This document shows positions 7,903-51,749 of a stretch of 64,000 bases of DNA, piece by piece. The stretch lies in NCBI GenBank assembly GCA_024641335.1, contig JAHEDG010000003.1:1-64000 (forward strand), in the 5' to 3' direction. The DNA comes from Candidatus Zixiibacteriota bacterium. Its GTDB lineage: Bacteria; Zixibacteria; MSB-5A5; UBA10806. The translations under genes were made by a program, and so were the position numbers. Below the pieces are notes generated by a model that did no database searches, had not been told where the DNA came from, and saw only the letters and a list, made by a program, of their open reading frames with translations. Numbering within the stretch: the first letter of the stretch is position 1; the number at the start of each line of letters is the position of its first letter.

Positions 7903-9372
7903 ATGACCTCTATGTATGATAAACTGATTTTCAACCTTTCCACTGAGGGATCGGAGGGTATATCCCTTCCCGAAAACGATGTTCCCGATTTTGATTTCCG
8001 CCATGGGTTAGCGGAAGAGCTCCTGCGCAAAACCGATCCGGGACTGCCCTCCGTGGCCGAGCCGGAAGTGGTACGCCATTTCATCTCCCTCTCTTTGAAA
8101 AATCACCATATCGACCGGGGCTTTTATCCGCTCGGTTCCTGTACCATGAAATATAATCCCAAGATCAACGAGGATCTGGCCCGTCTGGACGGTTTCGTGG
8201 CGGCTCATCCTCATTTCCCCGATAGTCTCGTCCAGGGAACCCTGTCCCTGCTCTTCGAGCTGCAGGATATGTTGCGGGAAATCGCCGGTATGGATGCCGT
8301 GACTTTGCAGCCCGCCGCCGGAGCGCATGGCGAGTTCACTGCCCTGCTGATGATAAGGGCTTATCATAATCATCAAAAAAGATCTCCCATGAAGATAATC
8401 CTTCCCGATTCCGCCCACGGCACTAACCCCGCGTCGGTCGCTATGGCCGGCTATGAGGTTGTCCAGATCAAATCCAATCCCGAAGGACGCGTCGATATCG
8501 ACCAATTAGCCCGGCATTGTAACGATAATCTGGCCGCCTTTATGTTAACCAATCCGAATACGCTGGGATTGTTTGAGTCGGAAATCCAGAAAATAGCTCA
8601 CCTTGTGCACGGTGCCGGAGGGCTTCTCTATATGGACGGCGCCAACCTGAACGCCCTCTTAGGCATCACCAGACCCGGAGATATGGGGTTCGATGTCGTC
8701 CATTTCAATATGCATAAAACATTCTCCACACCGCATGGTGGAGGCGGACCCGGCGCTGGCGCCCTGGGAGTAAAATCGAATCTCGAACCGTTCCTGCCGA
8801 TACCGATAGTCGCCAGAAAACAGGATCGCAAAGGTACGGACTATTTTTTCCAGGATTATAAACGGCCGCTGTCGATTGGCAAGGTCCATAGTTTCTTCGG
8901 CAATATCGGCAACCTGGTCAGGGCTTATTGTTACATCCGCAATCTCGGAGCGGCCGGGCTGTCCGAAGTTTCCGAGACAGCCATCATTAACGCGACTTAC
9001 CTGCGCGAAAAACTCAAAAGCCGATTCGAACTCTTCTTCAAAGGAGAGACCATGCACGAATTTGTGCTTTCCGGCAACAAGCAAAAAGCCAGGGGAATCA
9101 AAACACTCGATATCGCCAAAAGAATACTCGATTTCGGCATCCACGCCCCCACTGTCTATTTCCCCTTGATCGTGCCAGAAGCCCTCATGATCGAGCCGAC
9201 CGAAACCGAAAGCAAGGCATCTCTGGATAACTTTATCAAAATAATGTTCCAGATCGATGATGAGATAGATACCGATCCCGAAAATATCTTATCCGCGCCG
9301 CACGATACTCCGGTATCTCGGCTGAATGAGGCTTTGGCCGCCAGAGAACCGGATATCTCATACCAGGAATAA
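7903..9372 (+). CDS. gcvPB: Glycine dehydrogenase (decarboxylating) subunit 2
   Basis: The 489-aa protein is the PLP-carrying half of split glycine decarboxylase. Recognisable blocks are FYPLGSCTMKYNPKINE, LQPAAGAHGEFTALLMIRAYH, LPDSAHGTNPASVAMAG and HFNMHKTFSTPHGGGGPG, with the PLP lysine in MHKTF near residue 272. It begins one base after the stop of the thioredoxin-like gene. Together with GcvPA and GcvH it decarboxylates glycine to feed one-carbon units. Confidence 0.95.
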   Translation: MTSMYDKLIFNLSTEGSEGISLPENDVPDFDFRHGLAEELLRKTDPGLPSVAEPEVVRHFISLSLKNHHIDRGFYPLGSCTMKYNPKINEDLARLDGFVAAHPHFPDSLVQGTLSLLFELQDMLREIAGMDAVTLQPAAGAHGEFTALLMIRAYHNHQKRSPMKIILPDSAHGTNPASVAMAGYEVVQIKSNPEGRVDIDQLARHCNDNLAAFMLTNPNTLGLFESEIQKIAHLVHGAGGLLYMDGANLNALLGITRPGDMGFDVVHFNMHKTFSTPHGGGGPGAGALGVKSNLEPFLPIPIVARKQDRKGTDYFFQDYKRPLSIGKVHSFFGNIGNLVRAYCYIRNLGAAGLSEVSETAIINATYLREKLKSRFELFFKGETMHEFVLSGNKQKARGIKTLDIAKRILDFGIHAPTVYFPLIVPEALMIEPTETESKASLDNFIKIMFQIDDEIDTDPENILSAPHDTPVSRLNEALAAREPDISYQE

Positions 9373-9401
9373 ATCCGGCGTCTTGCTGAAACGTCCCGGG
9401 A

Positions 9402-11069
9402 ATGATCGAAATTAAAAACATATCGGTGGTTTTCAACGGCAGAGAAGGCAAAATCCCGGCCTTATCGTCCTTAAACCTCTCTATCGATCAGGGAGAGTAT
9501 CTCTCTATACTCGGCCCCAACGGTTCCGGCAAATCGACTCTCCTGAAAGCCGTATGCGGCCTGATTCCCGCGTCGGATGGAGAAATTCTTATCGATGGCG
9601 CGCCTGTCGTTCCGGGGAAGTTCGGCCGATTGCTTTTCGGAAAAGTCTCCGTCGTCCTCCAGGAACCGTCCGGTCAGTTCCTGATGCCTTCGGTCAAAAC
9701 CGAAATCATATCCGTATTACAGAATCTCGGACTGCCTGAGAATACGCAGCTGCAACGGCTCGATGCCATCGTAAAGCAGTTCTCGCTGGAGCCCCTGCTC
9801 GATCTGTTAGCTGATAATCTCTCCGGCGGACAAATGCAGATAATCAATCTGGCTTCTGCCGCCGCGGTTTCTCCCGGAATTCTGCTGTTGGACGAGCCGA
9901 CCACCTTTCTCGATAGACGATATCGTCGCGTTCTGCTCGATTATCTCGATGATCTTCACGGCCGCGGGCTGACTGTTATTCATATCACCCAGTACCCGGA
10001 GGAATCCCTTCGCTCCTCCAGAGTTTGCGTTCTCGACCACGGAGCTATTATTTATGACGGCGATCCGCGGAGCTGCTTTTCCGATCCGAATCTCATTGGG
10101 GGATCAAGGCTGGTTGTTCCACGCGATTTGAAATTCGAAAAAGCCTTCTGTTTCGATATGAATAATTCGGATGCGATGAAATCATTTATCTCTCGCTTGA
10201 ATCATCTGCCCGGCATTTCAGAAGCTAATGAGGATTCCGCTCCGGGGGAATACCCCCCTCTGATATCGTTGAAAAATGTCTCGTATTCCTATGAAAATAA
10301 TCCCTTCCAGCTGAATATCGAAAACCTGCGGTTCTATCCCGGTCAAATTACGGCTCTTGTTGGCCCGGCAGGCTCCGGCAAATCGACGCTTGCCTTGCTT
10401 CTGGCCGGCCTGCTAAAACCATCCAAGGGAGCCATTTTTCTGAATGATCGCCCTCTTGCCGATTACTCGTTCAAAGAGCTTCGCCTGCGAATCGGTATTG
10501 AATGGCAGCTTCCTGATTCAGTAATGATCGGCCCGACTGTTATGGATGACATCTCTTTTATCCTCGATAATCTCGACCTGAAAGTAGATCATCTCGATCA
10601 ACTGCTTTCCAGATCCGGATTGCGAGGATTCGAAAACCGTATCGTCGATTCGCTTTCCGGCGGGGAAAAACGGAAACTCTCTCTCGCCGGTCTGCTGGCC
10701 TCATCGCCGGATTTTCTGGCCCTGGACGAGCCGGCCGCTTTCCTTGATCCTTTTTCCCAAAACCAACTCTCGGCTATGATCGGTGATATCGCCCGGGACG
10801 GCAAAGGGATACTCATGATCGGCCATGATCTCCCGTTTATCGCCGAACTGGCCGAAAGAATCATCGGCATCAGGGACGGTCGAATCATGTTCGATATTTC
10901 CGCCAGGCAATTCTTCTCCTCTGATCAATACCTGCGAAAACTCGGGTTACCTGACGATCCTATGGTAACTTTCAGACAGAAACTGGCTGAAATCGGCCTT
11001 AATATTCCCGGAGCAACCATCGACCCTGAAATTGTCAGGACTTACTTGAAAAACCCCGGCCGGAATTGA
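9402..11069 (+). CDS. ecfA-like: Fused double ATPase of an ECF-type transporter
   Basis: The 555-aa protein has two ABC ATPase domains. The first (about 1-240) has Walker A GPNGSGKSTLL, signature LSGGQMQ and Walker B LLLDEPTTFLD; the second (about 285-510) has GPAGSGKSTLA, LSGGEKRK, ALDEPAAFLDP and switch His in MIGHDLPF. Such ATPases power energy-coupling-factor uptake of vitamins or metals with an EcfT membrane protein and a substrate-binding S protein. The only EcfT-like gene here is at 58 kb, and no S component is visible. In the first domain the switch position reads ITQYPEE, that is Gln instead of His. The C-terminal 40 residues are extra. Confidence 0.85.
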   Translation: MIEIKNISVVFNGREGKIPALSSLNLSIDQGEYLSILGPNGSGKSTLLKAVCGLIPASDGEILIDGAPVVPGKFGRLLFGKVSVVLQEPSGQFLMPSVKTEIISVLQNLGLPENTQLQRLDAIVKQFSLEPLLDLLADNLSGGQMQIINLASAAAVSPGILLLDEPTTFLDRRYRRVLLDYLDDLHGRGLTVIHITQYPEESLRSSRVCVLDHGAIIYDGDPRSCFSDPNLIGGSRLVVPRDLKFEKAFCFDMNNSDAMKSFISRLNHLPGISEANEDSAPGEYPPLISLKNVSYSYENNPFQLNIENLRFYPGQITALVGPAGSGKSTLALLLAGLLKPSKGAIFLNDRPLADYSFKELRLRIGIEWQLPDSVMIGPTVMDDISFILDNLDLKVDHLDQLLSRSGLRGFENRIVDSLSGGEKRKLSLAGLLASSPDFLALDEPAAFLDPFSQNQLSAMIGDIARDGKGILMIGHDLPFIAELAERIIGIRDGRIMFDISARQFFSSDQYLRKLGLPDDPMVTFRQKLAEIGLNIPGATIDPEIVRTYLKNPGRN

Positions 11070-11080
11070 ATAAATTTCCC

Positions 11081-11111
11081 TTGACATCAGGCCCGAAAAA
11101 AATTATTTATA
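11081..11111 (+). promoter_or_regulatory. Promoter of the pyr operon
   Basis: A consensus -35 TTGACA is followed after 17 bp by TATTTA (or TTTATA after 19 bp). It lies directly downstream of the ECF ATPase stop and upstream of the attenuator and pyrR. Confidence 0.6.
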
Positions 11112-11116
11112 CCAAA

Positions 11117-11202
11117 CGCCGGCTCCCGGCGGCCAAAAGGTCTGTGGCAGTGAATTTACCAGAAAAAGAACGCAGAATCCGCCTCACGGGCGGCTTTTTT
11201 TT
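11117..11202 (+). promoter_or_regulatory. Putative transcription attenuator of pyrRBC
   Basis: The leader contains a strong hairpin (CGCCGG-CTC-CCGGCG, 11117-11131) and then a terminator (CCGCC-TCACG-GGCGG followed by C and eight T, 11179-11202), all before pyrR. The GGCGG at 11128-11132 can pair with the CCGCC of the terminator, so two exclusive folds are possible. PyrR family proteins control such leaders by binding RNA with UMP. I do not recognise the classical PyrR anti-antiterminator loop sequence, so the binding site is inferred. Confidence 0.6.
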
Positions 11203-44952: not shown

Positions 44953-46248
44953 TTGACTAAATTTCTGCTCAAAACCTTAATTCTCCTGGCGTTACCGGCC
45001 CTGGCCTTCTCCCAGAATAAATCCGGCTTTACCGATAACCTCATGCGAAAACCGGTCTATTTCGATTTCACCGCTTTCCGCGATACTTCCGCCGAAAATA
45101 CTGTTATTGAAGTTTATTATAAAATCTATTCCACCGCTCTGACTTATGAAAAACGGGGCGAAAAATTCATGGCCTCCTATGAAGTCAATATAGTTATTAA
45201 TAAAAAAGGCAAACAGATCACCGGCGGATCGAAAAGCGGCGAGCTGTTCGCTGAAACTTATGAGGCTACTCGAAGGGAAGACGATTTCATTATCGATATC
45301 ATCAAATTCTCTCTGCCGCCCGACGATTATGGGCTCGAGGGGAATTTTATCGATCTCTTCTCCGGAGATCAGGAAAAACAGAAATTGAATATGAAATTAA
45401 AAGAGTTCAAAAAAAAGCCTCCATCCCTTTCCGGCATCGAATTCGTCAGAGAGACACTTTCCTATGACGTCGATTCCCCCTTCGGAAAGGACGGCCTGGT
45501 TCTGATTCCGTCCGTCTCTCGAGTTTACGGTTACAGCGAACCGGAATTAAAGGTCTTTTACCAGATATACAACCAGCCCGGATTCAAAGGAGATTACCTG
45601 GTGTTCTACGAAATATCCAAAAGCGGAAAAATCGTGAATACCGATACCGCCATGTTCGTATCTGATGGACCGGTAACCGATCGCCTCGAAAAACTTAATG
45701 TTGAGGAGTTCATGCCCGGAGAATATAAACTGTCGGCGCGGGTTACCTCGCCGGGGCATAAGCTCAATATCTCGACTCTGGATGATTTTATTATCGAATG
45801 GTCGGCTCTATCCATAGTAAAAAACGACTTCAAAACAGCCGTCGAACAACTTAAATATATCGCCTCCAGAGACGAAATGAAAATACTGCTCGATACACCA
45901 GTAAACCAGAGGCTCATCAAGTGGAATGAATTCTGGGATTCACAGGATTACCCCAAAGAAACACCGGAAAACGAACCCCAGAAAGAATACTACCGCCGCC
46001 TGCGTTACGCCGATCTCAATTTCGGACATTTCGGCCGGGACGGCTGGAATACCGATATGGGGATGGTCTATGTAACTTACGGCCCCCCCGACGAAATCGA
46101 GAGGCACCCCTTCGATCTGGAAACCAAACCGTATCAGGTCTGGTATTATTACGAACGGGAATTACGCTTCCTGTTTATCGATAGAAACGGCTACGGCGAT
46201 TTCGAACTGCAATATCCTTATGACGGCGATATAAGAAGGGCGAGGTGA
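44953..46248 (+). CDS. GWxTD-domain exported protein 1
   Basis: The 431-aa protein (TTG start, GGAGG upstream) has a signal peptide (LLALPALAFS, about residues 1-20), a beta-rich middle and a C-terminal GWxTD domain (about 315-431): QKEYYRRLRYADLNFGHFGRDGWNTDMGMVYVTYGPPDEIER. The domain is a conserved block of unknown function, mainly found in FCB bacteria and relatives. A second member follows 1 base later. Location after the MacB-like exporter may point to a shared envelope task. Confidence 0.85.
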   Translation: MTKFLLKTLILLALPALAFSQNKSGFTDNLMRKPVYFDFTAFRDTSAENTVIEVYYKIYSTALTYEKRGEKFMASYEVNIVINKKGKQITGGSKSGELFAETYEATRREDDFIIDIIKFSLPPDDYGLEGNFIDLFSGDQEKQKLNMKLKEFKKKPPSLSGIEFVRETLSYDVDSPFGKDGLVLIPSVSRVYGYSEPELKVFYQIYNQPGFKGDYLVFYEISKSGKIVNTDTAMFVSDGPVTDRLEKLNVEEFMPGEYKLSARVTSPGHKLNISTLDDFIIEWSALSIVKNDFKTAVEQLKYIASRDEMKILLDTPVNQRLIKWNEFWDSQDYPKETPENEPQKEYYRRLRYADLNFGHFGRDGWNTDMGMVYVTYGPPDEIERHPFDLETKPYQVWYYYERELRFLFIDRNGYGDFELQYPYDGDIRRAR

Positions 46249-46249
46249 C

Positions 46250-47656
46250 ATGCGAAGTTCAATCAGAAAACTTTTGGTCTTTATTCTCATGGGTCTTTGC
46301 TCCACAGTGTCATTCGCGGAGGATAGCAGGTTGTCCGATCCGCTCTATTTCAAAGCCGATTATAGTGTCTTCCGTTATCCTCAGGATCTCTCCAGGTCTT
46401 ATGTGGAAATATTTTATAATCTCCAGCGCAGCCAGCTGAAATATTCCCCCGATAGTCTGGGATATGTTGCCCTGGTCGATTTTAAGATTACCCTGAAAGA
46501 TACATCCGGCGCTCAAATCGATACTCTCAGCTGGACTGCCGGCTCTCGAATCTCATTGTTGGCCGAGCTCGAAGATTCCGGATACCTGATTTCCGATATA
46601 TTCGCCGATCTCTTTCCACCGGGCAATTTCATCGTCGAATTGGAGGTCAAAAGCGGATCACGGACAGGATTCGGAAGCTTCCCAGTGGAAATAATATCTT
46701 TTGAATCTACCGATCTTCAGCTGTCCTCGCCAATGCTGGCCTACGAGATTACCAAAGACGACCCAGGCAAGTTCTCCAAAAACGGCTACAAGGTAATGCC
46801 CAATCCATCCGGTCGATTCTCCCAGAATTCCAACGTGATCTACATGTACATCGAAGCTTATAATCTCGATATATCGCCGGATAGCGACTCGCTCTATTCG
46901 GTTTCTCTGGATATCCTCGATATCGAAGGCAAAGAGATTAAATCGATTCCGCCCTCAAAATACCGCAAGCCGGGTGATTCGGCCGTCGTTGTTACTGGTT
47001 TCTCCATCGCCGCCTTAAAAGCAGGAATGTACCGCGTCAGAGCCAATCTGACAGATGGATCTCAAACCTCATCGGCTGAAAAGGTCTTCACCGTGATCGC
47101 CTCCCAGGAAAGAGTGAAGGAAGAAATGATGAGGGCCCTCCTGAAAATATTCCCCCGGGCTAACAGTATTACCAATAAGGAAGAAGCACAACAGTTCCGC
47201 GATGATATCACTTATATAGCTACGATCGATGAATTAAGGCTCTACGATTCCCTGAATCTCGATGGCAAAGCCAATTTTCAAAAACAATTCTGGGCCGGAC
47301 GAGACCCCGATCCCACGACCGCCGTCAACGAGCTCCAGCTCGAACACTATCGCCGGCTGAAATTCGTGGTCGATAATTTTGACCAATATAAAGGCGTCAT
47401 CCAGGGTTGGAAATCGGATCCGGGAAGAGTCTATATCCTCTATGGCGAACCTACCGAAATCGAAAAATACCCTTCCTCCATCGAATCCCGTACCTGGCAA
47501 AGATGGTGGTATCACGGGATAGAAGGGGGCGTCTATTTCATTTTTGTCGATTTCGAGGAAACCGGTAATCTGGTCCTGGTTCATTCCTCAAAACAGGATG
47601 AAGTCAAGGATTACAACTGGGAAGATAAAGTCAAAATGACCGTTTTCCAGAGGTAA
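46250..47656 (+). CDS. GWxTD-domain exported protein 2
   Basis: The 468-aa paralogue has a signal peptide (LVFILMGLCSTVSFAE), two or three beta-sandwich-like stretches and the C-terminal domain with LEHYRRLKFVVDNFDQY, GWKSDPGRVYILYGEPTEIEKYP. The motif here is GWKSD instead of GWxTD. The N-terminal parts of both proteins begin with PVYFDFTAFRDTS- or PLYFKADYSVFRYP-type segments, showing a whole-length duplication. Function unknown. Confidence 0.83.
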   Translation: MRSSIRKLLVFILMGLCSTVSFAEDSRLSDPLYFKADYSVFRYPQDLSRSYVEIFYNLQRSQLKYSPDSLGYVALVDFKITLKDTSGAQIDTLSWTAGSRISLLAELEDSGYLISDIFADLFPPGNFIVELEVKSGSRTGFGSFPVEIISFESTDLQLSSPMLAYEITKDDPGKFSKNGYKVMPNPSGRFSQNSNVIYMYIEAYNLDISPDSDSLYSVSLDILDIEGKEIKSIPPSKYRKPGDSAVVVTGFSIAALKAGMYRVRANLTDGSQTSSAEKVFTVIASQERVKEEMMRALLKIFPRANSITNKEEAQQFRDDITYIATIDELRLYDSLNLDGKANFQKQFWAGRDPDPTTAVNELQLEHYRRLKFVVDNFDQYKGVIQGWKSDPGRVYILYGEPTEIEKYPSSIESRTWQRWWYHGIEGGVYFIFVDFEETGNLVLVHSSKQDEVKDYNWEDKVKMTVFQR

Positions 47657-47765: not shown

Positions 47766-49541
47766 ATGGATAATCCTCAATTAAAAAATTACAAAACCAA
47801 AATCGGCTTTACCGATCGCGAAAATCTACTGGTCGATTCCTTCAGAGTCTTGAGCGCGGATCTCGATGTCGATATGGTGGTCAAAAATTCCCTCGGGTTC
47901 ATTATTAAAAGGTTCGATGCCGACGCTGCCTGCCTGTTTCTGGCTGATCTTCATGATTATTCGGTCCGTTCCTGCTGCGCCGGATCCGCCGATCCTGAAA
48001 AAGTCCATATTCTCCCTTTTAAAGATGAACATAATATCAAAGGCTGGGATACCGCTTCCAGAAAACCGGTGATAATCAACGATATCGACCCCGAAGATCC
48101 TTATTCCAAAGCTATCTGCGGCTATGTCGGAATCTGCCCGGATAACGTTATCGGAGTGCCCCTCTTCGCCGGAGGAGAATTTCTCGGAATCGTACAGGCC
48201 ATTAACAGCTCTGAAAAAAATAAATTCTCCAGTGATGATCTGGAACTGCTGGAAATCATCGCCGAGCGCATCGCCCTGACCCTGCGTAACGCTTGGATTC
48301 TCGAAGAAGCGGTCAGGGCTTCAGATGAAGCCAAATCTCTGTATGAAGTCGGTATCGCCCTTTCCAGCTCTCTCGAACTCGAAGATCTTCTCGATAAAAT
48401 TCTGGAAAACCTGGCCCGCGTAATGGAATATGATATCGCTATCATCTACCTGGTCGATCCTCTGGACGGTACCATAAATCAAATCTCAACCCGCGGACTG
48501 GCCGATACCGTCAATGAACGTATCCACCTGAAAATAGGGCAGGGGGTGTGCGGACGGGTGGCCGAAACCGGCCAGGGGATTATCGTATCCGATGTCGATA
48601 CCAATAGCGATTATATCGCCCTAAGACCCCAAACCGCCTCGGAAATGGCCGTGCCTTTGAAAGTCAAAGGATCCGTTATCGGGGTCTTTAACATCGAAAG
48701 CGATAAATCCGAGGCCTATACAAGACACGATCTCGAGCTTATGAACGCCTTCGCCAGCCTGGCCGCTGTTTCCATCGAAAGAGCCAGATTCCACCAGGAG
48801 CGGCTGGTCGCCAGAGAACTCGAAGACGAATTATCTATCGCCCGCAGAATTCAGCAGACCTTTCTGCCCGCTGAGAGCCCGTCCATACCAGGATTCGATC
48901 TGGCCGGCGTCAATATACCATCGGCCGAAGTAGGCGGAGACTACTACGATTTCATTCCCATAGTCGATAACCAGTTCGGTATCGCTATCGGCGATGTCGC
49001 CGGCAAAGGAATTCCCGCTTCGTTGATTATGGCCGCTTTCAGAGCCAGCCTAAAAGCCGAAATCAGAAATAACTTCGCTATCAGAGCTATCCTGCAAAAA
49101 GTCAATAATCTCCTGTTCGAATCAATCGAACGAGACAGATACGTCACCGCCGTCTACGGTGTCCTCGATTCCAAAAACAGGATCTTTACCTTCTCCAACG
49201 CCGGACACAACCCTCCGATTATCATTAGATCAGCCGGCGGCGTCGAATATCTCAAAGAAGGAGGCCTGGCTCTCGGTATTTTCGCCGAATCTGCCTATGA
49301 AGAACGGTCCATATTCCTCGCCCCCGGGGATACCATGATTTTCTATACCGATGGAGTCACCGAAGCCAATAATTCCGATGGCATCGAATTCGGCGAAAAA
49401 AGACTGCTCAAAATACTCCTCGAATCCAGAAAACTTCCGGCCCGAGATATCATTGATAATATAGTAAAAGATGTCGGTTCGTTCGGAGCTGATGGAGATA
49501 ATCACGACGATCTAACCATCATCGTTCTCAAAGCGTTATAA
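47766..49541 (+). CDS. GAF-GAF-PP2C (SpoIIE/RsbU-type) serine phosphatase
   Basis: The 591-aa soluble protein has two GAF-like sensor domains (about 25-180 and 195-345) joined to a PP2C-type phosphatase (about 370-590). Phosphatase motifs: LPAESPSIPGFDLAG, AEVGGDYYDFIPI, IAIGDVAGKGIPASLIMAAF, FSNAGHNPPII and GDNHDDLTIIVLKAL with the metal-binding Asp residues. Such proteins dephosphorylate anti-sigma-factor antagonists in partner-switching pathways. No anti-sigma or STAS gene is adjacent; the next gene is an ECF sigma factor across a 408-bp gap. Confidence 0.92.
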   Translation: MDNPQLKNYKTKIGFTDRENLLVDSFRVLSADLDVDMVVKNSLGFIIKRFDADAACLFLADLHDYSVRSCCAGSADPEKVHILPFKDEHNIKGWDTASRKPVIINDIDPEDPYSKAICGYVGICPDNVIGVPLFAGGEFLGIVQAINSSEKNKFSSDDLELLEIIAERIALTLRNAWILEEAVRASDEAKSLYEVGIALSSSLELEDLLDKILENLARVMEYDIAIIYLVDPLDGTINQISTRGLADTVNERIHLKIGQGVCGRVAETGQGIIVSDVDTNSDYIALRPQTASEMAVPLKVKGSVIGVFNIESDKSEAYTRHDLELMNAFASLAAVSIERARFHQERLVARELEDELSIARRIQQTFLPAESPSIPGFDLAGVNIPSAEVGGDYYDFIPIVDNQFGIAIGDVAGKGIPASLIMAAFRASLKAEIRNNFAIRAILQKVNNLLFESIERDRYVTAVYGVLDSKNRIFTFSNAGHNPPIIIRSAGGVEYLKEGGLALGIFAESAYEERSIFLAPGDTMIFYTDGVTEANNSDGIEFGEKRLLKILLESRKLPARDIIDNIVKDVGSFGADGDNHDDLTIIVLKAL

Positions 49542-49633
49542 TTTTCTACTTTTGTAGAAGTTCATAACACATGCCGGCCATTCTAAGCTCATATTAAATA
49601 ACCTGTTATGTCTACCAATGTATTTTGTTATTG

Positions 49634-49684
49634 TTTGTCACAAATTCGCCGTTCCAACGTGAGACTTTTGTTGCGACTAACAGG
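49634..49684. promoter_or_regulatory. Palindromic elements upstream of the sigma-54 site
   Basis: The stretch holds an 11-bp palindrome TTTGT-C-ACAAA (49634-49644) and one half (TAACAGG, 49678-49684) of an inverted pair whose other half, CCTGTTA, is at 49602-49608. They lie 35-120 bp upstream of the sigma-54 promoter, where an enhancer-binding activator would act. No activator is known, so the function is inferred. Confidence 0.35.
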
Positions 49685-49718
49685 CTGAATAATAATGTCT
49701 TACGGTAATCATGTTTTA

Positions 49719-49734
49719 TGGCACGCTAATTGCT
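49719..49734 (+). promoter_or_regulatory. Consensus sigma-54 (RpoN) promoter
   Basis: TGGCACG-CTAA-TTGCT is an essentially perfect -24/-12 element: the GG and GC dinucleotides are 12 bp apart. It lies in a long AT-rich noncoding gap and points toward the ECF sigma gene about 215 bp downstream. I found no equally good match elsewhere in the window; near matches lie inside genes and lack TTGC. It needs an AAA+ enhancer-binding protein, none of which is encoded here. Confidence 0.75.
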
Positions 49735-49778
49735 TAATTACAAAGTGTAGTTTGCTTCTCTCCCCTCAGTTACTTGGG

Positions 49779-49805
49779 TTGGAGCCGCCATAACGGCGGC
49801 TCCAA
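49779..49805. other. Perfect 11-bp inverted repeat in the ECF sigma leader
   Basis: TTGGAGCCGCC-ATAAC-GGCGGCTCCAA forms a very stable hairpin about 35 bp after the expected sigma-54 start site. It is followed by TCAGAAAAAAGG and not a T-run on either strand, so it is not a classic terminator. Candidate roles are an RNA leader structure or a protein operator. The 49542-49949 gap otherwise contains the sigma-54 site, the palindromes and a lone TTGACA at 49822. Confidence 0.6.
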
Positions 49806-49949
49806 TCAGAAAAAAGGGGATTTGACAAAGAAATAAGCAGATATCGCCTGACACTCCGCTGGAAATGTCCCGGGGGAAATCGATTTTTACCCGACATTCC
49901 CTGTTGCTCTAAACAGCGCTTCTTGATTTTTCACCCAGAGGTAGATCAG

Positions 49950-50504
49950 ATGGTCAGATTTTCACGAGAAAGACTAAAATCGGAATTCGAAACCTCCGCA
50001 GTAATTCACCTTGAATATCTTTATAGTATGGCCAGAATGCTTACAGGAAATTCCGCCTATTGCGAGGATCTGGTCCAGGAAACATATCTGCGGGCTTACA
50101 GTAAATTCAATCTCTACACCCGCGGCACCAATTGCCTCGCCTGGTTGATGCGGATTATGACCAATACCTATATCAACCATTACAATAAGGTTAAACGGAT
50201 CCCGGTTCACCAGGAAATCATACACGATATCTACCCCGAAAACCTCGATCCCAATCGCCAGGTCGATGATGTCGAGGCTGTTGACGATGAAAAGCTCCTC
50301 AGCTACTTCGTCAGCGATCACGTCAAAAAAGCAATCAACTCCCTGCCGTCTGAATACAGAGAAATGGTCATCCTGTCGGACCTGAGAGGTCTTTCATACC
50401 AGGATATCGCCGCTAACCTCGGATGCCCACTCGGTACGGTCAGATCGAGACTCTCCCGCGGCCGAACCCTCCTCAAACGTAAGCTCGAATCTATCCTTAA
50501 TTAA
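49950..50504 (+). CDS. ECF-type RNA polymerase sigma factor
   Basis: The ATG at 49950 (AGAGG eight bases upstream) gives 184 aa, and the track start at TTG 49923 would add 9 residues. Region 2 is EDLVQETYLRAYSKFNLYTRGTNCLAWLMRIMTNTYINHY, and region 4 is LPSEYREMVILSDLRGLSYQDIAANLGCPLGTVRSRLSRGR. It should direct RNA polymerase to a small regulon. No anti-sigma factor follows; instead tRNA genes do. The upstream sigma-54 promoter suggests a sigma cascade. Confidence 0.92.
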   Translation: MVRFSRERLKSEFETSAVIHLEYLYSMARMLTGNSAYCEDLVQETYLRAYSKFNLYTRGTNCLAWLMRIMTNTYINHYNKVKRIPVHQEIIHDIYPENLDPNRQVDDVEAVDDEKLLSYFVSDHVKKAINSLPSEYREMVILSDLRGLSYQDIAANLGCPLGTVRSRLSRGRTLLKRKLESILN

Positions 50505-50687: not shown

Positions 50688-50761
50688 GGGCCCATAGCTC
50701 AGCTGGTTAGAGCAACTGACTCATAATCAGTGGGTCCCAGGTTCGAGTCCTGGTGGGCCCA
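50688..50761 (+). tRNA. tRNA with CAT anticodon (probably tRNA-Ile2, possibly tRNA-Met)
   Basis: The 74-nt cloverleaf is complete: acceptor GGGCCCA paired with TGGGCCC, D arm AGCTCAGCTGGTTAGAGC, anticodon loop CTCATAA and T arm GGTTCGAGTCC. The anticodon CAT reads AUG, or AUA once C34 becomes lysidine. The acceptor has C4-G69 and C5-G68, the pairs used by TilS in E. coli tRNA-Ile2, so I favour Ile. CCA is not encoded after the discriminator A. Confidence 0.93.
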
Positions 50762-50779
50762 ATAAGTTTTGACGTTAGT

Positions 50780-50856
50780 GGGCGATTAGCTCAGCTGGTT
50801 AGAGCGTTCGGTTCACATCCGAAAGGTCACTGGTTCGAGTCCAGTATTGCCCACCA
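50780..50856 (+). tRNA. tRNA-Val (CAC anticodon)
   Basis: The 77-nt cloverleaf has acceptor GGGCGAT paired with ATTGCCC, D arm AGCTCAGCTGGTTAGAGC, anticodon stem-loop CGGTTCACATCCG with anticodon CAC for GUG, and T arm CTGGTTCGAGTCCAG. CCA is encoded, unlike in the neighbouring tRNA 18 bp upstream. Both are probably transcribed together. Confidence 0.95.
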
Positions 50857-50987
50857 TTTGAAAAGGAAATATGAGCAGCAAAAAATCAGATAGTCTGATT
50901 ATGATATCCAGGTTTGTTTTTTACCGGAAGCGGCAGACGTTCGTCGCTTCCGATGATAAATTGAAAATTATTGCTCGGGAATGGTTG

Positions 50988-51012
50988 TGCGCCGCGTAAG
51001 GCGCATTTTTTA
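50988..51012 (+). terminator. Terminator after the tRNA genes
   Basis: TGCGCC-GCGTAA-GGCGCA is followed by TTTTTTATTT, so transcription of the tRNA unit probably ends before the zinc-ribbon gene. Confidence 0.75.
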
Positions 51013-51032
51013 TTTCCGGATAGGAGGATAAT

Positions 51033-51749
51033 TTGCAAAATGATTTGGCTTTGCTTATGGACCTGCAGGAACTCGACGACCAGCTCGGAGAACTGGAACG
51101 ATCGAGAATCTATCTGCCCGAAATGATCCAAAAACTGGAAAACGAATTATCCGAACTCGAAAGCAATATCGAAGAAAATGATAAATTGCTCTTAGAAAGC
51201 GCCCGCGAACAAAAATCGATCGAACTCGAAATCGAAACCGATAAAGAGCAGCTGGAAAGCTACCAAAAACAGATGAAAATCATTAAAACCAATAAAGAAT
51301 ATGACGCTCTGACCACCGAAATCGACACCAAAAAACTGGCCATCTCAGATAAAGAAGAAAAAATCCTGGCGCTAATGGCTACCATGGATGAATGCAAAGA
51401 AAAATCCGGACAGCTTAAGGAACAGTTAAAGGAAATCAAGGCCGGCAATACTCAACAGCTGGAAATGCTTAAAGATCAATCCTTGTCTCTCCAGGCCAAA
51501 ATCGACGATAGAATGGCCAAAAGAATTCGGCTGGCCAAAGATATCAACAGGCAGATAATCGGAACTTACGAAAGAGTCCGCAAGGGCAAGGGCGGGCTGG
51601 TCGTTGTGCCGATCCGCAAAAAAGCATGCGGAGGATGTTTCAAACAGATTCCACCGCAGAGAATCCAGGAAATACGACGGGGAGATAAAATATTCTCATG
51701 CGATAATTGCGGCCGAATTCTGATCTGGATAGACGAAAATAATAATTAA
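51033..51749 (+). CDS. Coiled-coil C4 zinc-ribbon protein (CdsZ/DUF164-like)
   Basis: The 238-aa protein (TTG start, AGGAGG upstream) is almost wholly alpha-helical coiled coil (about 5-175) and ends in a zinc ribbon, ACGGCFKQIPPQRIQEIRRGDKIFSCDNCGRILIW, with four cysteines in two CxxC pairs. This matches the widespread DUF164/C4-type zinc-ribbon family, known from the chlamydial CdsZ. A general cytoplasmic role, possibly with nucleic acid, is suspected but unsettled. guaB follows. Confidence 0.88.
   Translation: MQNDLALLMDLQELDDQLGELERSRIYLPEMIQKLENELSELESNIEENDKLLLESAREQKSIELEIETDKEQLESYQKQMKIIKTNKEYDALTTEIDTKKLAISDKEEKILALMATMDECKEKSGQLKEQLKEIKAGNTQQLEMLKDQSLSLQAKIDDRMAKRIRLAKDINRQIIGTYERVRKGKGGLVVVPIRKKACGGCFKQIPPQRIQEIRRGDKIFSCDNCGRILIWIDENNN

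Follow-up and report, generated by a model that had tools for sequence, protein, structure and literature searches.

What does a sigma-54 promoter control when it stands in a long noncoding gap ahead of a gene for another sigma factor? In the 64-kb stretch of Zixibacteria DNA analyzed here (the window), a 408-nt gap separates a GAF-SpoIIE/PP2C phosphatase gene (47766–49541) from the ATG of an ECF sigma factor gene at 49950, and within it lies TGGCACGCTAATTGC (49719–49733, + strand); TGGCACGN4TTGC matches exactly nowhere else in the window. A preliminary description had read this sequence as a near-perfect RpoN element apparently driving the ECF gene, with a small RNA in the leader at 49745–49949 as the alternative. 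The element itself was confirmed. To decide between its possible products, we compared the locus across 133 genomes of the phylum, comprising nine of the same order (Candidatus Zixibacteria; G000–G008, of which G000 is the window's own genome, 2.86 Mb in 98 contigs) and 124 others.

The motif by itself has no genome-wide significance and proves little, because about one exact match to TGGCACGN4TTGC is expected by chance per 3-Mb genome and two are present in the window's own; reversed-pattern controls gave 0–1 matches per genome. Its significance is supplied by conservation. At the orthologous loci, the counterparts of the window's TGGCACG-CTAA-TTGC keep the -24 GG and the -12 G in 9/9 genomes and the -12 C in 7/9, giving GG-N10-GC in seven genomes and GG-N10-G in all nine, and TGGCA and TTG are invariant throughout the order. 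Mean pairwise identity across the nine genomes was 100% for TGGCA and 90% for TTGC, against 29–44% for the flanks and spacer in one comparison of the boxes and 28–38% in another (upstream flank, 29–38%; 12-nt spacer between box and downstream core, 38%; downstream flank, 28–29%), with flanks that are otherwise unalignable. The -12 C is missing from G002 and G004, which counts against a sigma-54-driven small RNA. The window's own genome carries a single rpoN gene, an intact 470-aa ORF (Sigma54_DBD, E 3.5e-60), and ~16 strong Sigma54_activat matches indicative of enhancer-binding-protein genes. With its GG pair conserved and an rpoN gene in the genome, the proposed promoter survives; its conserved and correctly spaced GG/GC elements, the presence of rpoN and activators in the genome, and the putative activator sites upstream support it as a real sigma-54 promoter.

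The second exact match in the window's own genome (G000:C48:9125–9139, − strand, locus L084; there is no third) is located shortly downstream of the gene for a GAF-type sigma-54 activator (9347–11122, − strand), and it either precedes a small ORF or overlaps its start. Next to an activator gene in G003 (857481) stands an identical TGGCACGTTATTTGC, so a second conserved promoter for sigma-54 is probable here.

The preliminary description had also pointed to palindromes upstream of the promoter that could bind an activator, and these are borne out in the relatives as a conserved TGTTA-N7-TAACA motif. Within the 260 bp upstream, a perfect copy was found in 6/9 genomes and a copy with at most one mismatch in 8/9, where 0.02 and 0.4, respectively, would be expected; the observed level was reached in 0/300 shuffles. 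In one family the sites were located around -110 and -192; in the other they were around -160, with weaker ones around -90, a spacing that fits paired activator sites. These palindromes look like activator sites, and we treat them as putative upstream activating sequences (UAS). The window's own copies are degenerate, which counts against the small-RNA reading: TGTTATTGTTTGTCACA (49626–49642, + strand), 93 bp ahead of the -24 element, has one mismatch, and the weaker UAS-like TGTAGAAGTTCATAACA (49553–49569, + strand), close to where G001 and G003 have their perfect site (about -160), has two. Elsewhere in the genomes, a search for a wider regulon of the motif returned counts approximately equal to those of the reversed-pattern control. 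Because there is no enrichment over this control, the sites look either dedicated to this locus or too short as a motif to be told from background.

We then asked what is conserved downstream of the promoter. In all nine genomes of the order, 26–29 nt from the TGG, there is a near-invariant noncoding core with the consensus AGTTTGyTTCTCTCCCCTCAGTTrCTTkGG, represented in the window by GTAGTTTGCTTCTCTCCCCTCAGTTACTTGGG (49747–49778, + strand), which is C/U-rich, resembles an anti-Shine-Dalgarno sequence, and is mostly unpaired in predicted folds. Its first 30 nt have a mean pairwise identity of 95%. Conservation sets in 13–14 nt past the -12 C, and since identity rises from 38% in the spacer to 95% in the core, this onset coincides with the expected start of a sigma-54 transcript; we infer that the RNA starts ~12–14 nt past the -12 C. 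A hairpin of at least 10 pairs begins 32–34 nt past the first core base in every genome (n = 9), and its stem is retained in 9/9 with compensating changes. In the window, this is a GC hairpin with a terminator-type stem, TTGGAGCCGCC-ATAAC-GGCGGCTCCAA, followed by TCAGAAAAAA, which has no T-run (49779–49805, + strand). Core and hairpin together make up a predicted RNA of ~58–63 nt plus tail, at about 49745–49806 (+ strand) in the window. Coding potential was rejected as an explanation for the core, because the invariance spans all codon positions; there is also no consistent start codon.

The features found are those by which trans-acting small RNA genes of bacteria are recognized: short length, noncoding sequence, a promoter of its own, a terminator-type hairpin, and a conserved single-stranded region, with a T-run in some copies only. 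Conservation alone is no proof of transcription, and the core could instead act as DNA, as an operator or a site of another sort behind the promoter. We consider this very improbable, as the core is long and non-palindromic and keeps a constant distance from the predicted start of transcription, and the adjoining hairpin is kept with paired substitutions. Of a small-RNA product, by comparison, we are rather confident: the conserved object is very likely a sigma-54-driven small RNA gene of ~60 nt, because in three of the nine genomes the promoter and RNA occur without an ECF gene behind them. The preliminary description's alternative, a small RNA made from the leader, thus has the better support, though the RNA is shorter than proposed, ending near 49806 and not at 49949.

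The distribution of this unit is narrow. BLAST searches with the DNA of the conserved stretch gave one match in each of the nine order genomes and none in the 124 others of the class, and the covariance model, run over the 133 genomes of the phylum, returned E values of 1e-21 to 2.5e-16 for the nine and chance-level scores for the rest. Eight of the 124 outside genomes had matches at model E values of 0.01–0.1, which is chance level; these lacked both core and promoter and were rejected as occurrences of the RNA. The core is absent from the syntenic tRNA locus in other families, and an exact-core scan of 84,980 species genomes found matches in Candidatus Zixibacteria records only. Within the window's own genome, no second copy was found with three mismatches allowed, consistent with a single-copy unit. 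None of 4227 Rfam families exceeded its gathering threshold (the best, BjrC1505, reached 20–30 bits where 50 are required), and a search of a literature library on small RNAs of Zixibacteria, also with sigma-54, found no paper on Zixibacteria small RNAs.

Next, we examined the genes on either side. The ECF gene of the window (49950–50504, + strand) encodes a 184-aa sigma-70-family factor (Pfam Sigma70_r2 and r4_2; NCBIfam sigma70-ECF). The upstream neighbor, described in advance as a PP2C phosphatase, is indeed one, with a GAF-GAF-SpoIIE architecture by Pfam (+ strand). While promoter and adjacent RNA are present in 9/9 genomes of the order, the ECF gene follows in 6/9 (G000–G004 and G007) and is absent from G005, G006, and G008. 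In these three, the RNA is followed by noncoding DNA, then by tRNA-Met and tRNA-Val, and then by zinc-ribbon and IMPDH genes, which sit at the same place in the window. The window's tRNA-Met(CAT) and tRNA-Val(CAC) (50688–50853, + strand; identified by Rfam, and by ARAGORN in relatives) served as downstream landmarks. The phosphatase is directly upstream in G000–G004 and G007 and one gene further away in G008; it is not upstream in G005, and in G006 the contig ends. Protein searches returned close orthologues of the ECF factor in the same family only (62–75% identity), and in a protein tree the diverged ECF factor of G007 was placed weakly (82/69) beside the family's ECF clade. Because of this weak sister position, the linkage may be ancestral, with loss in some lineages; the gene may equally have been gained. 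By this comparison, the ECF gene is an optional passenger downstream of the unit.

Two further features of the neighborhood were observed. Upstream of the phosphatase, two tandem genes encode GWxTD-domain proteins (44953–47656), whose order is conserved together with an ABC permease pair in most relatives. Downstream, tRNA-Met(CAT), tRNA-Val(CAC), and the zinc-ribbon gene (50688–51749) stay together as a block in almost the entire class; only in this order was the small RNA gene seen ahead of it.

The competing view, that the promoter exists for the ECF gene in a cascade like that of hrpL and that the conserved stretch is a mere 5′ leader, draws on several observations: the gene lies on the same strand in all six genomes that have it, ~110–145 nt past the hairpin; in the window, the stretch from the hairpin to the gene contains no convincing sigma-70 promoter of its own; no T-run follows the hairpin in any of the six; and the position of the G007 factor leaves room for an old linkage. 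Nevertheless, we regard it as unlikely. Promoter and RNA persist in three genomes that lack an ECF gene at this place, so the linkage is not a consistent one, and the leader past the hairpin is unalignable between genera (28%) against a near-invariant RNA, a pattern that an ordinary mRNA leader does not explain. Nor does the core favor the ECF ribosome-binding site for pairing, which ranked 33rd among the 58 gene starts of the window. The claim that the promoter drives the ECF gene thus holds at most by half: the sigma-54 promoter is conserved, but its constant companion is the RNA. The description of a sigma-54 to ECF cascade as uncommon also needs qualifying, as it is not unprecedented: in Pseudomonas syringae, HrpRS acts through sigma-54 on the ECF factor gene hrpL (PMC5263251). 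Our locus resembles hrpL in having an ECF gene downstream of a sigma-54 promoter with putative enhancer-binding-protein sites, and differs from it in the conserved RNA lying between promoter and ECF gene and in the dispensability of that gene to the unit.

The hairpin offers a clue to how the RNA and ECF gene might be combined. A terminator rule recognized the hairpin in two of the three ECF-less copies (G006 and G008, with G005 failing) but in no ECF-bearing one. All six of the latter, including that of the window, lack the T-run; this correlation comes from nine genomes only. As the hairpin there is without a terminator T-run, read-through into the ECF gene is plausible, and the pattern suggests that it is allowed where such a gene exists. 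That part of the transcription continues into the ECF gene we put at just short of an even chance. By the same token, because its own copy has no T-run, the RNA in the window's genome may occur only as a leader or after processing. Taken one step further, the locus could be a dual-output sigma-54 operon: one promoter would yield an invariant regulatory RNA that needs no Hfq and also, when transcription passes the hairpin, an ECF sigma factor. We make this proposal tentatively.

A terminator-shaped hairpin with a variable U-tract could also belong to a cis-acting leader or attenuator, with core and hairpin sensing a ligand or protein and controlling read-through downstream. In line with this, the core can pair with a segment past the hairpin in the window's own long transcript (z = -3.9). 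However, this downstream partner is not conserved, and core-to-downstream pairing was no better than shuffles in 8/9 genomes, the exception, G006 (p 0.03), being ECF-less; we rejected it as a conserved switch. In the ECF-less genomes, moreover, there are only tRNAs to control, and these have promoter-like sites of their own of the TTGACT-N17 type. An attenuator is accordingly quite improbable, and we return to a small RNA acting in trans.

We then considered how such an RNA would act. The core contains CUUCUCUCCCCUC, capable of pairing with purine-rich ribosome-binding sites. Hfq (Pfam PF17209), the partner on which Qrr-type RNAs depend, went unmatched in all nine Zixibacteria genomes (completeness ≥90% and contamination ≤5% in six), while the same model matched 5 of 14 control genomes, Escherichia coli and Bacillus subtilis among them. 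Given that no Hfq was detected in nine genomes alongside a working control, chaperone-free pairing is preferred over the Hfq-assisted kind. Searches for conserved trans targets were negative: 14-nt complements of the core with one mismatch matched nearly only the gene itself; 9-nt complements anchored at Shine-Dalgarno positions before an ATG were few, about twice the reversed-pattern control, and not common to different genera; and duplex ranking of the 58 gene starts of the window gave no recurrent target. Across these searches, only one gene recurred as a candidate, in the two genomes that belong to the same genus. At its ribosome-binding site, a type IV pilin-like gene (G000:C80:13244–13261, − strand, L127) carries GAGGGGAGAGA, an 11-nt perfect complement of the core, a single case at chance frequency. 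This gene and a nitroreductase-like gene in G008 were rejected as targets, being single sites at chance level.

Nearly total invariance over ~30 nt with no conserved complementary target might instead mark a protein-binding or sponge RNA, equally sigma-54-driven, whose core binds an RNA-binding protein and not mRNAs. We judge this unlikely, though less so than the other rival readings, given that a C/U-rich core resembles C-rich pairing regions already known, such as that of 6C/B11 (PMC10470900). Hfq-independent pairing of the core with mRNA ribosome-binding sites is the prediction we favor, with a confidence that is evenly balanced.

Several characterized RNAs place this candidate in context. 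Qrr RNAs have a highly conserved pairing region and a terminator hairpin, are driven by LuxO, and act with Hfq. Transcription of Vibrio Qrr genes requires sigma-54 and an enhancer-binding protein (PMC10162802). The locus described here is predicted to share the sigma-54 promoter with an enhancer-binding activator, as well as the terminator-type hairpin and, in its core, a candidate for the highly conserved pairing region; unlike Qrr, it has no Rfam match, other activator sites, no detected Hfq, a single copy, and an ECF gene downstream in some genomes. CrcZ and CrcY of Pseudomonas are likewise sigma-54-dependent regulatory RNAs, driven by CbrB, which our candidate would resemble in promoter type. 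CrcZ is long and sequesters Hfq through repeated CA motifs, whereas the RNA here is ~60 nt with one C/U-rich core in genomes where no Hfq was found. The actinobacterial 6C/B11 RNA has C-rich single-stranded pairing regions, no known chaperones, and G-rich 5′ UTRs as targets (PMC10470900). Our candidate shares the C-rich single-stranded region and, as proposed, chaperone-free action; it differs in having no Rfam match, a sigma-54 promoter, and one open 5′ stretch in place of two C-rich loops. We regard the RNA as an undescribed new family of an already known kind, whose proposed dual output is possibly unusual.

In the mechanism that we propose from these comparisons, an enhancer-binding activator would occupy the TGTTA-N7-TAACA sites ~90–195 bp upstream and cause sigma-54 polymerase to start ~12–14 nt past the -12 element. 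The product would be an RNA of ~60 nt with the invariant C/U-rich core single-stranded at its 5′ end and the hairpin at its 3′ end, and the core would most likely pair in trans, without Hfq, with purine-rich ribosome-binding sites of mRNAs. In the ECF-bearing genomes, the hairpin without a T-run would probably permit partial read-through, and one promoter would then have two regulatory outputs. The comparison itself supplies the promoter, RNA, hairpin, activator motif, single copy, presence throughout the order, optional ECF gene, and failure to detect Hfq; transcription with its start and end, read-through, pairing with mRNAs, and the participating activator and targets are inferred.

Going by the libraries searched, the uncultivated Zixibacteria would here receive their first described family of small RNAs, and its predicted control region is complete, from activator sites and sigma-54 promoter to RNA and hairpin. 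With a core nearly frozen across the order, flanks that are unalignable, and Hfq undetected, it would offer a clean case for how small RNAs act free of a chaperone. If dual output is true, one signal to the activator would control two regulons at once, one transcriptional and one post-transcriptional; across genera the ECF output would have come or gone, with the RNA staying fixed. The locus also illustrates how the gene for a sigma factor can become attached to the promoter of a small RNA or be lost from it.
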